A DNA stretch of 42,446 nt from Gemmatimonadales bacterium (GTDB taxonomy: Bacteria; Gemmatimonadota; Glassbacteria; GWA2-58-10): contig JAJRTS010000107.1 of the NCBI GenBank assembly GCA_024278175.1, positions 1 to 42,446 on the forward strand, given 5' to 3'. Below, piece by piece: positions 127 through 39,577 of the stretch. The notes below the pieces were generated by a model. It had not been told where the DNA came from. It searched no databases and saw only the letters and a list, made by a program, of their open reading frames with translations. The translations under genes were made by a program, and so were the position numbers. How positions within the stretch are numbered: the stretch's first letter is position 1; every line of letters starts with the position of its first letter.

Positions 127-311
127 GGATAAGTTCTAAATTGTTATGAGGAAGTTTTTTATATCACTCATTTTTGTATATCAAAAGAAAATTCAGGCCT
201 GTTAATTGTAACTACATGATTTGAAAAAGATATGCCCCTTGATAAAAAGTTTTGGAAAAAGAGAGGGGGAGTGACAATTCTTTCAATTTTTTGATTAAAG
301 CAAAGGTCTCA
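127..311 (+). repeat. Repeat R2, copy A (leader element upstream of the aminotransferase)
   Basis: This AT-rich stretch matches, with scattered differences, the reverse complement of 28346-28586. Shared blocks include CACTCATTTTTGT, AGAAAATTC, GTTAAT, AAGTTTTGG, AAAAGAG, GGGGGAG and ATTCTTTCAATT, ending in TTGATTAAA and CAAAGGTCTCAAA. Both copies lie immediately upstream of a gene and point the same way relative to it. Copy A lacks the long palindrome of copy B. It ends about 10 bases before the GGAGG of the downstream gene, so it probably contributes its promoter or leader. Confidence 0.75.
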
Positions 312-330
312 AAAAATTTTGGAGGTTGAT

Positions 331-1758: not shown

Positions 1759-4647
1759 ATGACCGACCCAGGCAAATTACGCTCACTGGAACAGGCCCTG
1801 GCCTGCCGCCTGCGCGGAGAAGTTCTTTTCGATCAAGTCACCCGGGGCATCTATGCCACCGATGCAAGCAACTACATGATGACGCCCCTAGCTGTGGTGC
1901 TGCCTGTGGACGAAGAGGATGTGATCGCGGTGGCAGAGATTGCCGCCGAGCTGGGAGTGAGCGTTTTGCCGCGCGGAGGGGGGACCAGCCTGGCCGGCCA
2001 GGCGGTGGGAGAATCGCTGGTCATCGATTTCACCAAGTACATGAACCGGATTATCGAAGTAAACCAGCAGGAGCGCTGGGCCAGGGTTCAGCCCGGAGTG
2101 GTCCGCGACAATCTGAACGCAGAGCTGGCAGGCCTCGGCCTGCATTTTGCCCCGGATCCAGCCACCACCAGCCGGGCCACTGTGGGAGGGATGATCGGCA
2201 ACAACTCCTCTGGCACCAAAAGTATAATCTACGGCAAGACGGTGGACCACACCCTGGAGACCAGAGTGGTCCTGGCCGGCGGCCAGGTGCTGGAACTGGC
2301 CGGTCTGTCCGCCGGGGAATATGCCGCCCGCAGCGCCGGAACCGGCCGCGAGGGGGCGATCTTGCACGGATTCAAGCAGATTGTGGACGGTAGCCGGGAG
2401 GAGATCCTGCGCACTTTTCCCAAGGTGATGCGCCGGGTGGGAGGCTACAACCTGGACGAATTTACCGGAGACGGGCACTGGAACCTGGCCAAGCTGATCG
2501 TGGGCAGCGAAGGGACCCTGGCCACCCTGACCGAGGCCAAAATCAACCTGGAACCCCTGCCCAAACACGCCGTACTCTGCGTGGTCCATTTCAGCGACTT
2601 GCTTGAGGCGATCCGGGGGGTCGAGCCGATTCTGGCCCACGGGCCCTCGGCTGTGGAGATCCTGGACCGCACGGTGATGACCCTGGCCCGGGAAAACCGC
2701 TCGACGGCATCGTTGTGCGACTTTCTCCAGGGCGATCCGGAGGCGGTGCTGATTGTGGAATTCTTTGGGGACACTCTGGAGGAAGCTGTCGGCAGGGCCG
2801 CAAAACTGCAAAGCGAACTGCGCACTCAGCAGGTGGGCTACGCCTGCCCGCTGCTGAGTGACCGGGAGTCGATGGCCAGGGTCTGGACGGTGAGAAAAAA
2901 GGGCCTGGGGTTGCTGCTGGGCATGAAAGGGGAGCGTAAACCAATCCCCTTTATCGAGGATGCCTGCGTGCCGACCGCCCGGCTGGCTGAATATGTGGAC
3001 CAGGTGATGGATATCTGCCGGGAACAGGAAACCCGGCTGGTAATATACGCCCATGCCAGCGTGGGAGTTATCCATCTTCGCCCGGTGCTTGATCTGGCCC
3101 GGAGCACGGATATCGAGAGGATGAAAGCGATCGCCGAGGGGGCGTTCGAACTGGTGAAGCGCTACGGAGGATCCTGGAGCAGTGAGCACGGGGACGGGCT
3201 GTCCCGCAGTCCGTTTCTGGAAAGGTTTTACGGCCCCCGGATTTACCGCGCTTTCACCGAGGTCAAAAGGCTTTTCGACCCGGCCGGGCTGATGAATCCG
3301 GGCAAGATTATCGCTGCTGTGCCGATGGACGAGAACCTGCGCTACGGGACCGGGTACCAGCGGCCCGGGCTGGCATCGGAATTCAGCTTCAGGGACTTCG
3401 GCGGTTTTACCGCAGCGGTGGAAATGTGCAGCGGAGTTGGCGAGTGCCGCAAGACCCTGACCGGTACCATGTGCCCAAGCTACATGGCCACCCGCGACGA
3501 GGAACACTCCACCCGGGGCAGGGCCAATGCCTTGCGTCTGGCCATGACCGGCGGATTCGGCCCGGACGGGCTGACCAGCAAGCGGCTTTACGAGACTCTG
3601 GACCTGTGCCTCAGTTGCAAAGCCTGCAAATCAGAGTGTCCGAGCAATGTGGACATGGCCAGGCTGAAAAGCGAGTCCCTGCACAGGTACCACCTGCAGC
3701 ACGGCAGTACGGTGCGCGACAAGGCCGTGGCCTCATCTCTGGCCCTGTCGCGGTTTCTTTCGGGATGGAAAGCTCCACTGGCCAATTCACTGCTGAAGTC
3801 CAGCCTGTTCCGGACATTGCTGGAAAAGACGGCCGGGTTTGACCGGCGCAGAGTGCTGCCCCTGTACGCCAGCGAAACTTTTCAGCGCTGGTTCGCTGTG
3901 CGGCAGGCTAACGTTTCGGCAAAAAGAGTGGTGCTTTTCGACGACTGCTACATAAACTATAATGAACCTCAAGTGGGCTCCTCGGCAGTGGAGTTGCTGG
4001 AATCGTGCGGCTACCAGGTGCTGCCTGCCCGGGCGGGCTGTTGCCAGCGCCCCAGAATCTCACATGGCTATCTTGACCAGGCCCGCCGCGATGGAGAAAA
4101 AACCCTGCGCCGGCTGGACGAATTTATCCGCCAGGGACTGCAGGTGGTGGTTTGTGAGCCCAGTTGCGCATCCGCGCTTACCGACGACCTTCCAGACCTG
4201 ATCGACGATCCTGGCCTGGCAGGCAGGGTCAGAGAAAACGTGATGATGATCGACGTTTTCCTGCAAAACGAGATCGATCACGGCAGGCTGGATATCCGGT
4301 TCACCGCTCGGGTGGAGAAGGTTTCACTCCACGGACACTGCCATCAGAAAGCTCTTTACGGTTCCACGGCAATGATGAAGATCCTGGGCCGGGTGTCCGG
4401 CCTGGCTGTCTCTGAAATTGATTCGGGCTGCTGCGGCATGGCCGGTTCGTTCGGCTATGAAAAGGAGCACTACGAGCTTTCTCTAAAAATAGGCGATAAC
4501 CGGTTGTTTCCGGCCGTAAGAAAGCTGGGCGAAGACACGGCGCTGGTGGCTTGCGGTTTCAGTTGCAGGCATCAGATCGAGCACGCTACCGGCGTAAAAC
4601 CCCTGCACTGGGTGGAAACGATTCGTGGCAGAGGGGCGTTGAAATAA
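1759..4647 (+). CDS. Fused FAD/Fe-S 2-hydroxyacid dehydrogenase (GlcD-GlcF / YdiJ type)
   Basis: A 962-residue fusion. The N-terminal half is a GlcD-like flavoprotein: FAD-binding type 4 domain (about 38-180) with PRGGGTSLAGQ and IGNNSSGTKS, then an FAD-oxidase C domain ending with EHGDGLSR and LFDPAGLMNPGKI. The C-terminal half is GlcF-like: cysteine motifs from about residues 557 and 617 (CSGVGEC, CLSCKACKSECP) for Fe-S clusters, then two CCG-type segments (GCCQRP, SGCCGMAGSFGYE near 890). Such fusions include D-lactate dehydrogenases, glycolate oxidases and the D-2-hydroxyglutarate dehydrogenase YdiJ; electrons usually go to quinones at the inner membrane. The ATG follows GAGGAG at good spacing. 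The last codons, including the TAA, lie inside repeat R1 copy 1. LarA, encoded convergently downstream, favours D-lactate as a substrate (inference). Confidence 0.87.
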   Translation: MTDPGKLRSLEQALACRLRGEVLFDQVTRGIYATDASNYMMTPLAVVLPVDEEDVIAVAEIAAELGVSVLPRGGGTSLAGQAVGESLVIDFTKYMNRIIEVNQQERWARVQPGVVRDNLNAELAGLGLHFAPDPATTSRATVGGMIGNNSSGTKSIIYGKTVDHTLETRVVLAGGQVLELAGLSAGEYAARSAGTGREGAILHGFKQIVDGSREEILRTFPKVMRRVGGYNLDEFTGDGHWNLAKLIVGSEGTLATLTEAKINLEPLPKHAVLCVVHFSDLLEAIRGVEPILAHGPSAVEILDRTVMTLARENRSTASLCDFLQGDPEAVLIVEFFGDTLEEAVGRAAKLQSELRTQQVGYACPLLSDRESMARVWTVRKKGLGLLLGMKGERKPIPFIEDACVPTARLAEYVDQVMDICREQETRLVIYAHASVGVIHLRPVLDLARSTDIERMKAIAEGAFELVKRYGGSWSSEHGDGLSRSPFLERFYGPRIYRAFTEVKRLFDPAGLMNPGKIIAAVPMDENLRYGTGYQRPGLASEFSFRDFGGFTAAVEMCSGVGECRKTLTGTMCPSYMATRDEEHSTRGRANALRLAMTGGFGPDGLTSKRLYETLDLCLSCKACKSECPSNVDMARLKSESLHRYHLQHGSTVRDKAVASSLALSRFLSGWKAPLANSLLKSSLFRTLLEKTAGFDRRRVLPLYASETFQRWFAVRQANVSAKRVVLFDDCYINYNEPQVGSSAVELLESCGYQVLPARAGCCQRPRISHGYLDQARRDGEKTLRRLDEFIRQGLQVVVCEPSCASALTDDLPDLIDDPGLAGRVRENVMMIDVFLQNEIDHGRLDIRFTARVEKVSLHGHCHQKALYGSTAMMKILGRVSGLAVSEIDSGCCGMAGSFGYEKEHYELSLKIGDNRLFPAVRKLGEDTALVACGFSCRHQIEHATGVKPLHWVETIRGRGALK

Positions 4648-4836
4648 AACGCTCAACGCCCTCGAATGAAATATTTTGCTTGGTTTGCTGTCAAGGGCAA
4701 GGCAAGCCGTTCCTTTAAACAATGCCGCTAGTTATGCTATTCCAAGTAGTTACATTACTCTTGTCTTCGGCTGGTTTAATCTGGAACGGTCCTTGACAAC
4801 TCCAATGCCCATACTTTCGTGTTTTTTCGGGCACGG
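4632..4836 (+). repeat. Repeat R1, copy 1
   Basis: Starts with AGGGGCGTTGAAATAAAA and forms the hairpin GGGCGTTGA...TCAACGCCC. It continues with the left arm TGTCAAGGGCAAGGCAAGCC, a divergent centre, the right arm GGTCCTTGACAAC and the tail CCCATACTTTCG. A C-to-T change in the right arm keeps pairing through G-U. The left end overlaps the last 16 bases of the dehydrogenase gene and supplies its TAA. The copy lies between convergent genes. Confidence 0.85.
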
Positions 4837-4869
4837 TCCAAGGCTGATTGTCCGAAGCGGGTACGATAC

Positions 4870-6634: not shown

Positions 6635-7498
6635 ATGAGCATCCTGACCGGCATCCTGACAGTAGTGCTGCTCTTTTGCAACCTGGGCGTTGAAAGTCTG
6701 TTGGCCGACACTCTGGAACGCACGTTTCCCGCGGCTGCGGCTGTGGAAGTGGTGGCCGACGACGCGTCGATCGTGCTTATCGGCGGCGAGACAGGCCTGA
6801 TTGAGCTGAAAGTGGAGAGCAATAAAGATATTGAGGAATACTACGAGATTTTCTCCGGATTGGACAACGGCGTACTCCTGATCAATGTCGAGCGCAAAAA
6901 TAAGGGATTCAGGTTGTTCAGGATATTCAGGCTGTTCAGCGGCCCCTCCCCCTCGATCAGCCTCAGCCTGGCTGTCCCCTTCCAGACCGCCTGCCGGCTG
7001 CGTACCTCAGTCGGCTCCATCAATTGCAGCAACGTGCGGGGCGAGGTTACTCTTAAGACCGGCGCGGGCAGGATTACGGTGGACGGGCATTCCGGCAGCC
7101 TGGGCGCTAAGACCGGCGCAGGCAAGATAAAGCTGAGCGGATGCAGCGGCGCGATGGTGCTTAAAACCAGCGCGGGCAGGATTACGGTGGACGGACATTC
7201 CGGTAGCCTGGACGCTAAAACCAGCGCCGGTTCGATCAAGGTTGAGTTGGTATCCTCGCCCATAGCGGACTGCCGCCTGCAAACATCGAGCGGAGGAATA
7301 ACGTTGTCCCTGCCAGCGGGCAGCAATGCCGACCTTTACGCAAAAGCATCCAGTGGGGGTGTAAGCACCGACATTCCGGTAACCGTTTTAGGCAAACAAA
7401 CGCGCGGCAAGCTGGCAGGCAAAATCGGTTACGGCGGTCCGAGCATCACGCTAAAAACCAGCAGCGGCAGAATCAGAATCAGGAAAAACGAGTTCTAA
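6635..7498 (+). CDS. DUF4097-family secreted repeat protein (putative adhesin-like)
   Basis: A 287-residue protein with an N-terminal signal peptide (MSILTGILTVVLLFCNLGVES...) followed by the DUF4097 pattern: short beta-strand repeats with T-x-A/S-G-x-I in almost every turn, as expected of a right-handed beta-helix. A 36-residue unit containing GRITVDGHSGSL occurs twice at a 108-base offset (7052 and 7160) with nearly identical DNA, indicating a recent internal duplication. The start ATG follows CGAGG by seven bases. Repeat R1 copy 2 begins one base after the stop. DUF4097 proteins have no settled biochemical role; some sit in stress-response operons. No partner gene is adjacent. Confidence 0.75.
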   Translation: MSILTGILTVVLLFCNLGVESLLADTLERTFPAAAAVEVVADDASIVLIGGETGLIELKVESNKDIEEYYEIFSGLDNGVLLINVERKNKGFRLFRIFRLFSGPSPSISLSLAVPFQTACRLRTSVGSINCSNVRGEVTLKTGAGRITVDGHSGSLGAKTGAGKIKLSGCSGAMVLKTSAGRITVDGHSGSLDAKTSAGSIKVELVSSPIADCRLQTSSGGITLSLPAGSNADLYAKASSGGVSTDIPVTVLGKQTRGKLAGKIGYGGPSITLKTSSGRIRIRKNEF

Positions 7499-7711
7499 AG
7501 GGGCGTTGAAATAAAGACATTCAACGCCCTCGAATGAAATATTTCGCTCGGGCAAGTTGTCAAGGGCAAGACAAGCCGTTCCTTTTACAAATACTGCTGT
7601 TCGTGTTATACCAGGCAATTACACTGCTCCCGCCGGTTTTCGGCCAGCAATGGCGAGGAACGGCCCTTGACAACCCGCTTCTCATACTTCCGTTATTTTT
7701 CAACGCGCGTC
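7499..7711 (+). repeat. Repeat R1, copy 2
   Basis: Begins directly after the DUF4097 stop codon with AGGGGCGTTGAAATAAAG and the hairpin GGGCGTTGA/TCAACGCCC. The arms TTGTCAAGGGC and GCCCTTGACAA match perfectly. The centre differs from other copies but keeps paired parts: GCCG-GTTTT-CGGC where others have CCGG-TTTGAG-CCGG. It ends in CAACGCGCGTC. Between convergent genes. Confidence 0.85.
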
Positions 7712-7809
7712 TTAAAAAGTGTTGGAAAATACCTTCCGTGGCATTTTTCGCCGCAGCGGCTCAGCGGGCATGGCTACAGTATCGCTCCAGGGGGGGGCGA
7801 TTGTCTTGT

Positions 7810-13771: not shown

Positions 13772-13983
13772 CTAGCAGCGTGTTGAAATATTCGAAAGTA
13801 CGGGTGCCCGGTTGTCAAGGGCCGTTTCCCGCTATGCCGGCTCAAACCGGAGTAAGTGATACAACCGCTTGGTATAGCACAAGTAACAGGATCAGCAAAA
13901 GAAACGGCTTGCCTTGCCCTTGACAACCAATCAGGCAAAATATTTCATTCGATGGCGTTGAACGTTTTATTTCAACGCCCCTC
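13772..13983 (-). repeat. Repeat R1, copy 3 (reverse orientation)
   Basis: The only reversed copy. Read on the minus strand it starts AGGGGCGTTGAAATAAAACG, with hairpin arms GGCGTTGA/TCAACGCC, then GGTTGTCAAGGGCAAGGC. The centre GTGCTATACCAAGCGGTTG is almost identical to copy 4. The right arm is GAAACGGCCCTTGACAACC and the end is TTCAACACGCTGCTAG. It lies between the DUF4139 stop and the DUF885 start, both on the minus strand. Confidence 0.87.
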
Positions 13984-13997
13984 CAGCAGCGGGCAGC

Positions 13998-16888: not shown

Positions 16889-16941
16889 CGGGGCAATAGA
16901 GATGAGCGTCAATCCCTGTCCACACATTTCTCATTGACTTA

Positions 16942-17152
16942 GAGGGGCGTTGAAATAAAGGCATTCGACGCCCTGGAATGAAATTTTTTTGCCTTGTCGG
17001 TTGTCAAGGGCAAGGCAAGTTTTTTTACCGGTTCTGTTACTTGTGCTATACCAAGCGGTTGTATCACTTACTCCGATTTGAGCCGGGAGAGCGGGAAACG
17101 GCCCTTGACAACCATATTCCCATACTTTCGTCATAATTCAACACACATCTAG
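16942..17152 (+). repeat. Repeat R1, copy 4 (in the probable DASS transporter leader)
   Basis: Starts TAGAGGGGCGTTGAAATAAAG. The left hairpin has a mismatch (TCGACGCCC). The internal arms GGTTGTCAAGGGC and GAAACGGCCCTTGACAACC match exactly. It ends TTCAACACACATCTAG six bases before the transporter ATG. The centre is nearly identical to copy 3, with a G-to-T difference in CCGATTTGAGCCGG. Confidence 0.87.
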
Positions 17153-17157
17153 AGCCC

Positions 17158-18729
17158 ATGGAACACACCGATCAGGACAATTCGCTGCGCCCGCTGGCGG
17201 GCCTGGTGCTCGGCCCGGCGCTGTTTTTCCTGCTGCTGCTCCTGCCCACTCCCGGCGCCCTGGAGCCGGTTGCGATGAGGATGGCGGCGGTGGCCGCGCT
17301 GATGGCCGCGTGGTGGATCACAGAGGCGATCCCGATTCCCGCCACCGCCCTGCTGCCTCTGCCCCTGTTCCCCCTGCTGGGGATCCTGCCGGCGGCCGTA
17401 ACTCCGCTGAGCTACGCCGACAGGATGATCTACCTCTTTTTCGGCGGTTTTCTGATCGCGGTGGCCATGCAGCAGGTGGGCCTTCACCGGCGGATCGCCC
17501 TGCGGATTATCCGCGCTATCGGCTCCAGCCCCCCGCGCCTTCTGCTGGGTTTCATGGTGGCCAGCGCGTTCCTTTCGTTGTGGATCTCCAACACGGCCAC
17601 CACGATGATGATGCTGCCGATAGCGATGGCCGTGGTGCTGCAGATGTCCGACAACGTAATCAGCAGCGCCGACGGCGAGAAAATCCGCGACAGTTTCGGG
17701 CTGGTGCTGATGCTGGGGATCGCCTATTCGGCCAGTATCGGCGGGGTGGGTACGCTGGTGGGTACTCCGCCCAATATCGTAATGGCGGGATTTGTAAAAA
17801 AATTATTCCCCGCCGCCCCGGAGATCAATTTCCTGCAATGGATGCTGCTGGGCCTGCCGCTGGTGGCGGTTTTTGTGCCGATTGCCTGGTTTTACCTGGT
17901 ACGCTGGGGCTGCCCAACGAACCTGCACAAGCTCGAGGGGCTGGACCACCACAGCGGAGCGGCCTACCTGAACGAGCAGATTCGCGAACTGGGCCGGATG
18001 CGCTGGGGCGAGAAAGCGGTGCTGACCGTGTTTTGTATCACGGCGCTGGCCTGGATTTTCCGCAAGCCGATCGACTTCGGTTTTTTCTCCACCTGGGGCC
18101 TTACCCGCGTGTTTCCGCTGATCGACGACAGCACGGTGGCGATGACCATGGGTGTGTCGCTGTTCCTGATTCCGGCCGGGCGCGGCAGCGGCAAGCGTTT
18201 CCTGCTAAGCTGGAAAACCGTGCGGGCAGGCATGCCGTGGGGCATCCTGATCCTCTACGGCGGTGGGTTCGCGCTGGCAAAGGGGATGGAGGCCACGGGG
18301 CTGGCGCTCTGGCTGGGCGGGCAACTGGCCTGGCTCTCCAGCGTACCGGTGCCGGTGATGATCCTGGCCACCTGCCTGATGCTTACTTTCCTGACCGAGA
18401 TCACATCCAACACGGCCACCACCACGATGCTGATCCCGGTGCTGGCCGCAGCCGCGGTGGCAATGGGTACGCACCCCTACCTGCTGATGATCCCGGCGAC
18501 AATCTCGGCCAGTTGCGCGTTCATGCTGCCGGTGGCCACTCCGCCCAACGCGATTGTGTTCGGCAGCGGCTGGGTGCGGATCCCGCAGATGGCGCGGGCG
18601 GGCCTGTGGCTCAACCTGATCGGGGTGGTGCTGGTGACAGTAGCGGTCTATACGGTGGGGCTGGCCGTGTTCGATATCGACCCGGGCGTGGTGCCCCAGT
18701 GGGCGCAACATCTGGCCGGCGGACCGTAA
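17158..18729 (+). CDS. DASS-family sodium/dicarboxylate symporter
   Basis: A 523-residue inner-membrane protein with about a dozen hydrophobic segments. It carries both SNT motifs of the divalent anion:Na+ symporter family: WISNTATTMM (about residue 144) and ITSNTATTTM (about 418). VGTPPNI and the second repeat's VATPPNAIVFGSG are also typical. Members import succinate, malate, citrate or, in some branches, sulfate or phosphate; dicarboxylate is most likely. No ribosome-binding site is visible, because repeat R1 copy 4 ends six bases before the ATG. A plus-strand promoter lies upstream of the repeat and a probable terminator lies at 18850-18876. Confidence 0.9.
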   Translation: MEHTDQDNSLRPLAGLVLGPALFFLLLLLPTPGALEPVAMRMAAVAALMAAWWITEAIPIPATALLPLPLFPLLGILPAAVTPLSYADRMIYLFFGGFLIAVAMQQVGLHRRIALRIIRAIGSSPPRLLLGFMVASAFLSLWISNTATTMMMLPIAMAVVLQMSDNVISSADGEKIRDSFGLVLMLGIAYSASIGGVGTLVGTPPNIVMAGFVKKLFPAAPEINFLQWMLLGLPLVAVFVPIAWFYLVRWGCPTNLHKLEGLDHHSGAAYLNEQIRELGRMRWGEKAVLTVFCITALAWIFRKPIDFGFFSTWGLTRVFPLIDDSTVAMTMGVSLFLIPAGRGSGKRFLLSWKTVRAGMPWGILILYGGGFALAKGMEATGLALWLGGQLAWLSSVPVPVMILATCLMLTFLTEITSNTATTTMLIPVLAAAAVAMGTHPYLLMIPATISASCAFMLPVATPPNAIVFGSGWVRIPQMARAGLWLNLIGVVLVTVAVYTVGLAVFDIDPGVVPQWAQHLAGGP

Positions 18730-18849
18730 CAAAAGGGCCACGTTCTTCGCTGATCTCATCAAGTATTAGAAGAAGCTGTTTCATAACTGGAGCTTTACTT
18801 TTGCTTTTTCCCGTTGCCGGGTAATACCTAAAAACACAACCCCCTGTTT

Positions 18850-28345: not shown

Positions 28346-28586
28346 ACTCTTTGAGACCTTTGATTTAATCAAAGAATTGAAAGAATGGCGAGGGGGAGAG
28401 ACAAAACCTTTTTAAAAAGGTTCTTTTCTCTCCCCCTCACGCTCCCCCACTCTTTTGCCAAAACTTCTTATCGAGGAGCGTATCTCTACTCCCATCAATC
28501 AGTTATGATTAACGGGCTCGAATTTTCTGTTGTTACACAAAAATGAGTGGTATGAAAAATCTCCTCACCACAATTCAGTCGTCCAT
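28346..28586 (-). repeat. Repeat R2, copy B (leader of the GH20-like lipoprotein gene)
   Basis: The reverse complement matches 127-311 over most of its length. Shared blocks: ATTGT..TGAGGA, CACTCATTTTTGT, AGAAAATTC, GTTAAT, AAGTTTTGG, AAAAGAG.GGGGGAG, ATTCTTTCAATT, TTGATTAAA and CAAAGGTCTCAAA. It differs by an extra stretch of about 50 bases (see 28390-28438). At the downstream end CTTTGATTAAATCAAAG is a perfect dyad; copy A has one mismatch there. It ends 55 bases before the lipoprotein start. The rest of 28292-28648 holds no gene. Confidence 0.75.
28390..28438. repeat. Long palindrome inside R2 copy B
   Basis: Outer arms GAGGGGGAGAGA/TCTCTCCCCCTC and inner arms AACCTTTTT/AAAAAGGTT make an almost uninterrupted hairpin of about 49 bases. 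It is absent from R2 copy A, where only GTGACA stands in its place. It would block or terminate transcription in either direction. Confidence 0.8.
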
Positions 28587-34672: not shown

Positions 34673-34689
34673 TAAACGGTAACTCCTGA

Positions 34690-34903
34690 GAGGGGCGCCC
34701 TCAATAAAACTCTCAACGCCCTTTAATTAAATATTTTCCCTAGGCAAGTTGTCAAGGGCAAAGCAAGCCGTTCTTTTTACCGGTTCTGCTGTTCGTTTTA
34801 TTTCAAGCAGTTAGATTGCTCATGTCCGGTTTCGGCCAGTATAACAGAGAACGGCCCTTGACAACCCTTGTTCCCATTCTTTCGTATTTTTCGGGCACGC
34901 TTC
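34690..34903 (+). repeat. Repeat R1, copy 5
   Basis: Starts GAGAGGGGCGCCCTCAATAAAA. The left hairpin is degraded (GGGCGCCCTCA against TCAACGCCC), but the internal arms TTGTCAAGGGC and GCCCTTGACAACC are intact. It ends TTTCGTATTTTTCGGGCACGC. Relative to the flanking minus-strand genes it lies between the radical SAM stop and the lolA ribosome-binding site. Confidence 0.82.
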
Positions 34904-34922
34904 TATATCGGATGCGGTTCGA

Positions 34923-36860: not shown

Positions 36861-36961
36861 AATCCATTACTCTTTTTCGCCGCCCGCAGGGATGTGAATC
36901 ACCCCTTCGGCTGATCCCCGAGAGCCGGATTCAACTGACAACCGTTTTGCTCGACAGGCAT

Positions 36962-37175
36962 AGAGGGGCGTTGAAATAAAGACATTCAACGCCCTATGGT
37001 GAAAAATTTCGTTTGTTCGGTTGTCAAGGGCAAGGCAAGCCGTTTCTTTTGCTGATCCTGTTACTTATGTTGTATCAAGCCGTTGCGTCGCTCGAGCTGT
37101 TTTGGACCGGCCTGGCTGGAAACGGCCCTTGACAACCAGGCGCCCATACTTTCGAATACTTCAACACGCTGCTAG
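36962..37175 (+). repeat. Repeat R1, copy 6
   Basis: Starts AGAGGGGCGTTGAAATAAAG with a perfect GGGCGTTGA/TCAACGCCC hairpin. The arms are GGTTGTCAAGGGC and GGAAACGGCCCTTGACAACC, and the end is TTCAACACGCTGCTAG. The terminal CTAG supplies, on the opposite strand, the TAG stop of slt. Between the ABC promoter and the slt 3' end. Confidence 0.88.
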
Positions 37176-39538
37176 TTAACGGCTGAAAACTCCGGAAGTT
37201 TCCAGGCGAACAGGTTCCGGCTCTCTCCGCCCAGCTCCTGGTAGCGCCAGTAGTTGGTCAGCACTATTCTATTGTAATAATACGTCTCTTCCAGTGGAAT
37301 CAACTCGATAAAAAGATCCAGATCGAACCCGTCCTGCGTCACACCGGCCTGGCGCGATCGTTCCAGCCAGGCGGGCAGGTTGCGGGGATCGGCGTTGTAG
37401 CTGGAGATTGCCAGCGCGATATTCCCGTCGTACTTCTTCAGATTGCTGGACAGGAACTTGACGCCCAAGCGGATATTGACCGCCGGGTCGTAGAGCCTGC
37501 GGGTGCCGACCCTGCCGATTCCCTCGCCCCTGGCCAGGCGGCGGCCCACCGACGGCAGCAGTTGCATCAGGCCCACCGCGCCCGCGTGACTTTTAGCTTC
37601 CGGGTGGAAATTGGATTCCTGGCGCATGACCGCCGTGATCAGCCCCGGCGGGATTGCCCGGCGTTCGCCCTCGCGAACGATCACTTTCGTGTTCTGCCTG
37701 GGACTTAGAAACGCGATCCGCCAGAAATTTTCCGGCAGGCCCAGCCCTCCCTGCTGAAGATATTTCCTGAACGGTCCGCGGAATCCGCGCAACACCCGGC
37801 TGAACAGACCGGCGTCGAGAAAATTCTCGTGGTAGCTGAAACGCAGCCGCAGGTCCCCGGGCGCAAGTGACATCCCGTGAGCATAGATATAGGCGGCCTC
37901 GGCGTGGAAACCCAGCTCCCGCCACTTTCCGGCATGCTCCTGCACGGTGCGGCCGACCGTGCTCATCGTATCGGGAAACCGCGGCGACTGAACCATCGGC
38001 AACTGGCTGACCCAGGGAACGCCCCCCTGCCGGCCCTTGAGTATTCCGTGCTTGAGCGACCGTGCCCTGATCCCGTAATAAGTATAGGGATAGACTCTGG
38101 ACAGGACGGCGAACGTGCGCGCCGCCATTTCCTCATCGCCCAGTACCTGCTGGCTCTTGCCCAGAAAAAGCATCGTGCGCTGCCAGCCCTCGTAAGCGCT
38201 GAAACGGGCACCGGCCCAGGGGGAGAGCACCTCGAGTGCCTCCGGGTAGCGACCCTCGTGGTAGCAGATCAGCCCCGCGTAACTGACGATCTCCACGGCC
38301 AGTTCCTCGTCCGGCCCGGCTGCGAGCAAACCTTTCAGGCCCTCCAGCGCCTGCTCGAACCTGTCGCGCTCGATTTGGCTGCGTGCCAGCAACAGCCCGG
38401 CGTTCATCCTGGCGTCGCTGGCCGGGAAACGGGCGGCGGTAATCGAATCAACCGCGGCCACACGAGCGAAATAAGTGGCCGCATAGCCGAAATAGCGCCT
38501 CGCCGTGGAACGCCGCTTGCCGGACTTATACTTGCGCCAGGAGTAATCGTTCTTGCGCGCTATCGCCTGACATTTTTTTCCGCAACGGTAGTTGAACTCG
38601 GAGCGCAGCAGCAGGGCGCGCTCCATAAGCGCGCTGTTGGGGAAACGGGACGCGAACCGGCTGAAATATCTTTCCAACAGTTTTGCGTTACGACGGTTAT
38701 GCGAGAGCGTGCGGGCGGCGAACCCGCGGTTGATATTCTCGAAAATCCGCAGGTACGCCCGCTCCGCCTGCACAGAGTCGGGATAGCGCTTGATCAGGTC
38801 CGTCAAGACGGAGTGACCGCTCAGGCCTTGGGCAATCGCCCATTGGAGCATCTGTTCTGGACTGAGTTTCAACCCGCCCGCACCCTTGAGCGCCTCCACA
38901 ATCCGGCAGGCATCCTTCGCCTGGCTGTTGCCGGCGGACTCGTCCAGCAGCGCCTGGAGCGGGCCGGCGGCGGCCTTGTACTTTTTCTCCAGCAGCAGGC
39001 GACAGCCGGCCAGCAGCAGTATTCTGCGGGTAAACCGACTGACCGGCCAGGAGCGCCCGAACTCGAGAGCGGCCCGGTACAGCGCCTCGCCATCATGCCA
39101 GTTCACGGCGATAATCCCGGCGGCGCGGGCATATTCAGTTGTAAAGGGAAAGATGGAGTCAAGAGCGGTGAACCCGGCCGCGGCGGCGCGGAAATCAGTA
39201 AGAAAGGGCTGGCCCTCGCGCGAGATGTGGCGGAACGATGGTGCGCCTTTTACAATCCTGTCCACGAACTCGTCTTCTTCGTCCATCCCACGCTGAAACA
39301 GCGCCACGGCCCTGGCCAGACGGCCCAGGGAGTCCGCGCCCGTGGCCTCGCCGCCCAGCTTGATAACTTCCGTGTAAATTTTCTTGCGCACCGCCGGCGA
39401 GGCGTCGAAACTCTCCTGCAACCTCGCGACCGCGGCCGCGCCGCCTGCAACCAGCAGGCCGGGCAGGCTTACGGCAAGCAGCACCGCCATCAGCAGACAG
39501 ACGGGCAATTGATTGTTCAAGCGGCTGGATATATTCAT
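37172..39538 (-). CDS. Soluble lytic murein transglycosylase (Slt-type)
   Basis: A 788-residue periplasmic enzyme that cleaves peptidoglycan glycan strands to anhydro-muropeptides. It has an N-terminal signal/anchor (LPVCLLMAVLLAVSLPGLLVAGG), a long alpha-helical superhelix of TPR-like repeats (about 40-580), and a C-terminal SLT domain. The SLT domain has AVMRQESNFHPEAKSHAGAVGLMQL (catalytic Glu about 640), YDPAVNIRLGVKFL, ISSYNADPRNLPAWL and ELIPLEETYYYNRIV. The ATG follows an in-frame TTG and a weak GAG site. The stop codon is contributed by R1 copy 6. It lies 39 bases downstream of the phosphatase gene. With NamZ nearby it suggests a cell-wall turnover group. Confidence 0.88.
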   Translation of the reverse strand: MNISSRLNNQLPVCLLMAVLLAVSLPGLLVAGGAAAVARLQESFDASPAVRKKIYTEVIKLGGEATGADSLGRLARAVALFQRGMDEEDEFVDRIVKGAPSFRHISREGQPFLTDFRAAAAGFTALDSIFPFTTEYARAAGIIAVNWHDGEALYRAALEFGRSWPVSRFTRRILLLAGCRLLLEKKYKAAAGPLQALLDESAGNSQAKDACRIVEALKGAGGLKLSPEQMLQWAIAQGLSGHSVLTDLIKRYPDSVQAERAYLRIFENINRGFAARTLSHNRRNAKLLERYFSRFASRFPNSALMERALLLRSEFNYRCGKKCQAIARKNDYSWRKYKSGKRRSTARRYFGYAATYFARVAAVDSITAARFPASDARMNAGLLLARSQIERDRFEQALEGLKGLLAAGPDEELAVEIVSYAGLICYHEGRYPEALEVLSPWAGARFSAYEGWQRTMLFLGKSQQVLGDEEMAARTFAVLSRVYPYTYYGIRARSLKHGILKGRQGGVPWVSQLPMVQSPRFPDTMSTVGRTVQEHAGKWRELGFHAEAAYIYAHGMSLAPGDLRLRFSYHENFLDAGLFSRVLRGFRGPFRKYLQQGGLGLPENFWRIAFLSPRQNTKVIVREGERRAIPPGLITAVMRQESNFHPEAKSHAGAVGLMQLLPSVGRRLARGEGIGRVGTRRLYDPAVNIRLGVKFLSSNLKKYDGNIALAISSYNADPRNLPAWLERSRQAGVTQDGFDLDLFIELIPLEETYYYNRIVLTNYWRYQELGGESRNLFAWKLPEFSAVN

Positions 39539-39577
39539 CAAAGCTCTTGTTTTCCGGTAACAGACTGCGTGCAGGCG

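Follow-up and report, generated by a model that had tools for sequence, protein, structure and literature searches.

Why does R1, a short dispersed repeat in a Gemmatimonadales genome, so often touch the stop codons of neighbouring genes? In the stretch of DNA analysed here (the window, 42,446 nt), the preliminary description had proposed that copies 1 and 6 of R1 (Table 1) supply stops to adjacent genes, that copy 2 abuts one, and that R1 either inserts at gene ends or is retained because it works as a terminator or 3'-end module. All three contacts are real. The ORF of a fused dehydrogenase closes with GCG TTG AAA TAA (4636-4647) inside copy 1, and the slt-domain ORF (37172-39541, minus strand) ends in a TAG complementary to positions 37172-37174, which belong to the right CTAG of copy 6. 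Copy 2 does contact the stop of the DUF4097 gene, but it does not begin one base after it, as had been described; rather, the TAA (7496-7498) lies inside the left target site duplication (TSD), and the core, beginning AGGGGCG, starts at 7499. The ends of the other copies in the window, 3, 4 and 5, do not serve as a gene's stop.

Table 1. Coordinates of R1 copies, their flanking duplications and associated features (window positions unless a contig handle is given).
Feature	Position	Strand	Remark
Fused FAD-oxidase / 4Fe-4S dicluster dehydrogenase (FAD-oxidase + 4Fe-4S/CCG domains)	1759..4647	+	962 aa
R1 copy 1	4629..4841	+	core starts 4632
Left end of copy 1, A GGG GCG TTG AAA TAA	4632..4647	+	codes GALK + TAA of dehydrogenase
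Stranded TGA beyond right end of copy 1	4845..4847	+	homologous to native stop in same-genus empty site
Left TSD of copy 2, CTAA	7495..7498	+	holds in-frame TAA stop of DUF4097 gene
R1 copy 2	7496..7713	+	
R1 copy 3	13773..13985	-	15 nt from a stop
R1 copy 4	16940..17151	+	between divergent genes; end about 6 nt before start codon
R1 copy 5	34688..34905	+	about 20 nt from a stop
R1 copy 6	36961..37175	+	
Right TSD of copy 6, CTAG	37172..37175	-	complement gives TAG stop of slt gene
31-nt palindrome sites	L181:2911-2941, L163:505, L166:513, L173:104		

Two further features were seen near copy 2. The DUF4097 gene contains 54-nt in-frame tandem repeats (window 7052-7240), and directly beyond copy 2 (window 7710-7800) lies a second MITE-like sequence (AAAAGTGTTGGAAAATACCTTCCGTGGCATTTTTC), an apparent MITE that resembles an element in a stop codon of the same-genus genome G001 (L181:2891-3110).

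R1 has a core of ~205 bp without coding capacity and is dispersed in its own genome (4.18 Mb, 113 contigs), where a model of the left 101 nt of the repeat has 139 matches (E <= 0.001). Almost all strong copies were taken with 2.5-kb flanks and then aligned. Conservation extends from AGGGGCGTTGAA to TTCAACACGC; together with two less conserved bases farther out, the ends make up imperfect terminal inverted repeats (TIRs; AGGGGCGTTGAA / AAGCGTGTTGAA; 9/12 match in register). Diverged versions, best shared over the left ~86 and the right ~57 nt, are present in 3/5 other genomes of the same family, and none was found in the 55 further genomes of the phylum that were searched beyond this set.

Immediately outside its ends, R1 is flanked by a 4-bp direct duplication with the consensus YTAR (TTAG, TTAA, CTAG, CTAA). 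Among the 97 copies with both ends readable, 30 carry identical 4-mers at both ends, and 68/97 have YTAR on at least one side. When the right ends were shuffled 2000 times, identical 4-mers occurred in 7.5 copies on average and never in more than 18. At two variable positions, -4 (z 3.9) and -1 (z 6.1), left and right ends agree far more often than in shuffles; the near-invariant positions -3 and -2 show a weak excess (z 2.1 each), and at positions 0 (z 1.7) and -5 (z 1.3), no agreement beyond shuffles was found. Because agreement spans -4 to -1 and does not extend to 0 or -5, the duplication is 4 bp long. YTAR is its own reverse complement and holds TAR (TAA or TAG) on both strands, and since it is palindromic in this way, any gene stop that follows a C or T offers R1 a perfect site, whichever way round the element inserts.

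R1 is a bacterial MITE: it is small (<300 bp), is bounded by TIRs, is flanked by a TSD, and is present or absent at orthologous sites. IS5 duplicates Py-T-A-Pu, mostly CTAG, with CAAG among the variants (PMC5493358), and IS711 of Brucella has a YTAR site (PMC3163539). With its YTAR duplication, R1 is thus a MITE with an IS5-type signature. A parent of the IS630/Tc1-mariner type, suspected from the TA flanks, was rejected: the duplication is 4 bp long, positions -4 and -1 being duplicated too, and not the TA-only 2-bp duplication of IS630-type elements, and the lone DDE_3 match is degraded and has no R1 ends. The paired ends also bear on whether R1 could be a palindromic repeat of the REP/RAYT type with a TAG-tagged foot and not a TIR transposon at all. 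A TAG does stand at the hairpin foot, and a related short form, TTAG-AAGCGTGTTGAAAAAACACGCTT-CTAA, exists; however, the two ends of R1 are related and inverted, and the 4 bp duplicated outside them match, features that REP elements are not known to have. We give this reading hardly any credence.

The short form is a 31-nt minimal palindrome made up of two R1-type right ends back to back, and it recurs in both species. At L066, L074, L085, L111 and L126, the right YTAR is followed, directly or a few bases on, by another R1-type end, which suggests later insertions that reused the duplicated target. A second dispersed inverted pair in the window (136-313 and 28350-28578; 85 nt at 79% and 37 nt at 95%) is apparently unrelated to R1.

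In R1's own genome, no transposase with R1 terminal repeats was found among the DDE_Tnp_1 (PF01609), DDE_3 and NF033580 loci. None of these carries an R1 TIR of its own, and the PF01609 and NF033580 loci were rejected as the parent on this ground. Fragments of IS5-family transposases, from at least two distinct ISs, stand at the start of many contigs of this genome (L344, L346, L347, L349-L353), which indicates that the assembly breaks at collapsed IS copies; a parent of R1 could be missing there. One IS5-family element has the right end AAGCTGTTTCATAAC (written inward) beside CTAG or CTAA; ends of this type also occur as MITE-like pairs ~220 bp long, most of them in the same-genus genome, and resemble the AAGCGTGTTGAA end of R1 only in AAGC and TGTT. 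We take this element as a sign of probable YTAR-type IS5 relatives in the lineage and not as the parent of R1, whose putative link to IS5 rests on its TSD together with the other IS5-family fragments in the genome. An isolated AAGAAGCTGTTTCATAAC, the terminus of an IS5-family element or its MITE, was seen at window 18770-18787, just downstream of a gene ending at 18729.

The contact with gene stops holds genome-wide. With genes called in 0.62 Mb of fetched sequence by a home-made codon-usage caller, an in-frame gene stop lies exactly in the TSD in 16/128 copies (12.5%; 11 left ends and 5 right ends), and a further 6 copies supply a stop from inside their left end. Unmasked YTAR sites include 69 stops and 799 intergenic sites, from which a coincidence of 7.9% is expected (69/868 non-coding or stop), or 10.7% when sites are matched to the tetranucleotides that R1 uses, and the excess of 12.5% over 7.9% is not significant (P = 0.07). 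Moreover, the neighbours of R1 comprise 108 gene 3' ends and 125 gene 5' ends. Because the observed coincidence is near the expected range, targeting of stop codons is not needed, and random use of YTAR combined with purging of coding hits is sufficient. The proposed insertion at gene ends is correct, then, only in that YTAR is often a stop and coding hits would be purged.

Stops are also built into the element. The left inverted repeat carries a TGA at +11 and a TAA at +16, counted in relation to the TAR frame. In 52/103 copies, all three frames are closed within 18 nt of the left end, whereas 0.53% of intergenic control stretches are closed in this way; at the right end, two frames are closed. 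As the preliminary description had it, both ends can close a reading frame, by TAR on both strands of the YTAR duplication and by TAA or TGA in other frames of the inverted repeats. Six genes, including the one at copy 1, end inside the left TIR, four at +16 (tails GALK, RALK, GALK and GALE) and two at +11. In total, the stops come mainly from the target site and sometimes from the inverted repeat.

The last 100 residues encoded by each of the 22 stop-coincident genes were searched in five genomes of the same family, and the orthologues in G001 were read. R1 is absent at that place in 20/20 G001 orthologues with readable 3' ends. For 7/14 genes with a stop in the TSD, the G001 orthologue ends at the very same residue, the empty site being YTAR in three (CTAG, TTAA, CTAG) and TGA in four; the other half differ from their orthologue by several residues. 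Both these differences and the four TGA stops, which stand where this genome has TAA or TAG, count against a simple duplication of native stops. The six proteins whose stop is internal to R1 have other final residues than their orthologues. Identical C-termini in R1-free orthologues, which had been named as an observation that would count against stops supplied by R1, were thus found for half of the comparable TSD-stop genes and for none of the six with an internal stop. One G001 orthologue of an R1-bearing gene has a different MITE (CTAG-AAGAGTGTTGAAAAATGCC...) in its stop codon, which is an independent insertion.

Same-genus empty sites make the comparison of before and after direct, as at copy 1. 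The G001 orthologue of the dehydrogenase (91% identity) has an empty site without copy 1 and reads ...HWVETIRGKLQG, TGA, TTGTCCGAAGCGGG, whereas in this genome the protein ends ...HWVETIRGRGALK, TAA, and TGATTGTCCGAAGCGGG resumes past the right end of copy 1; the C-terminus is RGKLQG-TGA in the orthologue and RGALK-TAA here. More distant orthologues end a few to some fifteen residues past an HWVE motif. From these tails and the empty-site comparison, we conclude that a short variable tail was replaced by copy 1 and that the native stop was stranded. The left TSD of copy 1 is decayed (GCAG/CAG), its left junction reading GGCAG compared with GGCAAG in the empty site, and a small deletion has eroded the right junction. 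CAAG is a possible original target, if both junctions later lost a few bases.

The proposed retention as a terminator or 3'-end module found no support in gap use, orientation, terminator signatures or RNA stability. Gaps between genes are occupied alike, whether convergent (13/42), tandem (79/282) or divergent (21/56; P = 0.36), gene 3' ends face left and right R1 ends equally (54 v 54), and copies in tandem gaps show no orientation bias (34 v 41). Retention as a transcription terminator or as a 3'-UTR stabiliser of the upstream gene would fit the strong left hairpin (11 bp) of R1 and the long inverted repeat in its interior (GTTGTCAAGGGC...GCCCTTGACAAC), as well as the skew of tandem-gap copies towards the stop relative to random YTAR sites (51:24, P = 0.0025). 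However, the combination of a G+C-rich stem and a T-run is missing, as no T-run follows either R1 hairpin; no intrinsic-terminator-like site was found in copies 1-4, although the same region has 20; the RNA fold of R1 is not more stable than that of shuffles (z -1.10); and there is no Rfam match at R1. The stems are nearly invariant, with a two-sided change in 3/23 pairs, and because they hardly vary, covariation is uninformative. With gap use and orientation also unbiased, we regard a terminator or stabiliser as very unlikely, and R1 probably has no selected function.

The skew in tandem gaps could also point to a transposase that actively targets stops or gene 3' ends, for example via a transcription-termination structure, beyond its choice of YTAR. 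The copies there do lie nearer stops than starts, and the different MITE in the stop codon of the G001 orthologue would fit such targeting; however, the coincidence with stops is close to that expected, the numbers of 3' and 5' neighbours are similar and convergent gaps show no excess, so that active targeting is highly improbable. Leaving out sites at stops, together with any lying no more than 20-60 nt from a start, weakens the skew (P about 0.08-0.09), but with an 80-nt limit it stands at P = 0.01. The skew likely results from selection against disturbing promoters and ribosome sites, and R1 may have a mild 3' preference in tandem gaps.

Altogether, we consider it very probable that R1 is an IS5-like MITE that owes its stop contacts to its YTAR target and sometimes to its left TIR, with hits in the interior of genes being purged. 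An IS5-like transposase would move R1 in trans, and R1 would insert at YTAR and duplicate it. In a genome of 58.6% GC, many of the tolerable YTAR sites would be the genes' own stops, given that YTAR contains TAA or TAG whichever strand is read. At such a stop, insertion would duplicate the stop without altering the protein, as for copies 2 and 6 and 14 others. When R1 lands a few codons upstream and in another frame, the TGA and TAA of the left TIR would close the gene at once; the protein would lose its last few residues and gain a tail coded by R1, for instance GALK, as at copy 1 and five others. Copies landing farther inside a gene would be purged.

This model offers a simple and testable reason why small repeats hug gene 3' ends without terminator function, i.e. 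the target is a stop and the duplication preserves the stop, and the same reasoning should hold for every IS5-type element that targets YTAR. In a limited literature search, we found no paper stating that a YTAR target is a stop on both strands. For annotation, the model carries the warning that, in genomes of this kind, a short C-terminal tail like GALK would be transposon-coded. It is unlikely that the YTAR target and the terminus with stops in three frames amount to a harm-reducing insertion strategy, and that the GALK/GALE tails recurring at the ends of unrelated host proteins might be read as a shared C-terminal signal.

Among known mobile repeats, De Gregorio et al. are said to have found in 2006 that YPAL often lies close downstream of stop codons. 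YPAL / RU-2 of Yersinia is, like R1, a short mobile repeat with target duplications and empty sites, but it has no terminal inverted repeats and no TA termini and its duplications measure 3 to 26 bp (PMC2229807), whereas R1 has TIRs and a fixed 4-bp YTAR duplication. RUP of Streptococcus pneumoniae and the 155-bp Correia/NEMIS are, like R1, short multi-copy MITEs with TIRs and with stops in all frames (PMC2229807); they differ in their TA (IS630-type) target, their sequence and their host. With IS5-type elements, R1 shares the Py-T-A-Pu target, the sites CTAG, CTAA and TTAG and the CAAG variant (PMC5493358; PMC3163539), and IS711 of Brucella has the YTAR site with duplicated TA (PMC3163539); unlike IS5-type elements, R1 has no transposase, and its TIR AAGCGTGTTGAA is not the one carried by the IS found here. 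Finally, ERIC / RU-1 resembles R1 in inserting at gene 3' ends, replacing the native stop and adding element-coded residues (PMC2759123). While ERIC contains an open frame through which tens of residues are added, no frame stays open beyond 18 nt of the left end in half of the R1 copies, and an R1-coded tail measures about four to five residues at most.
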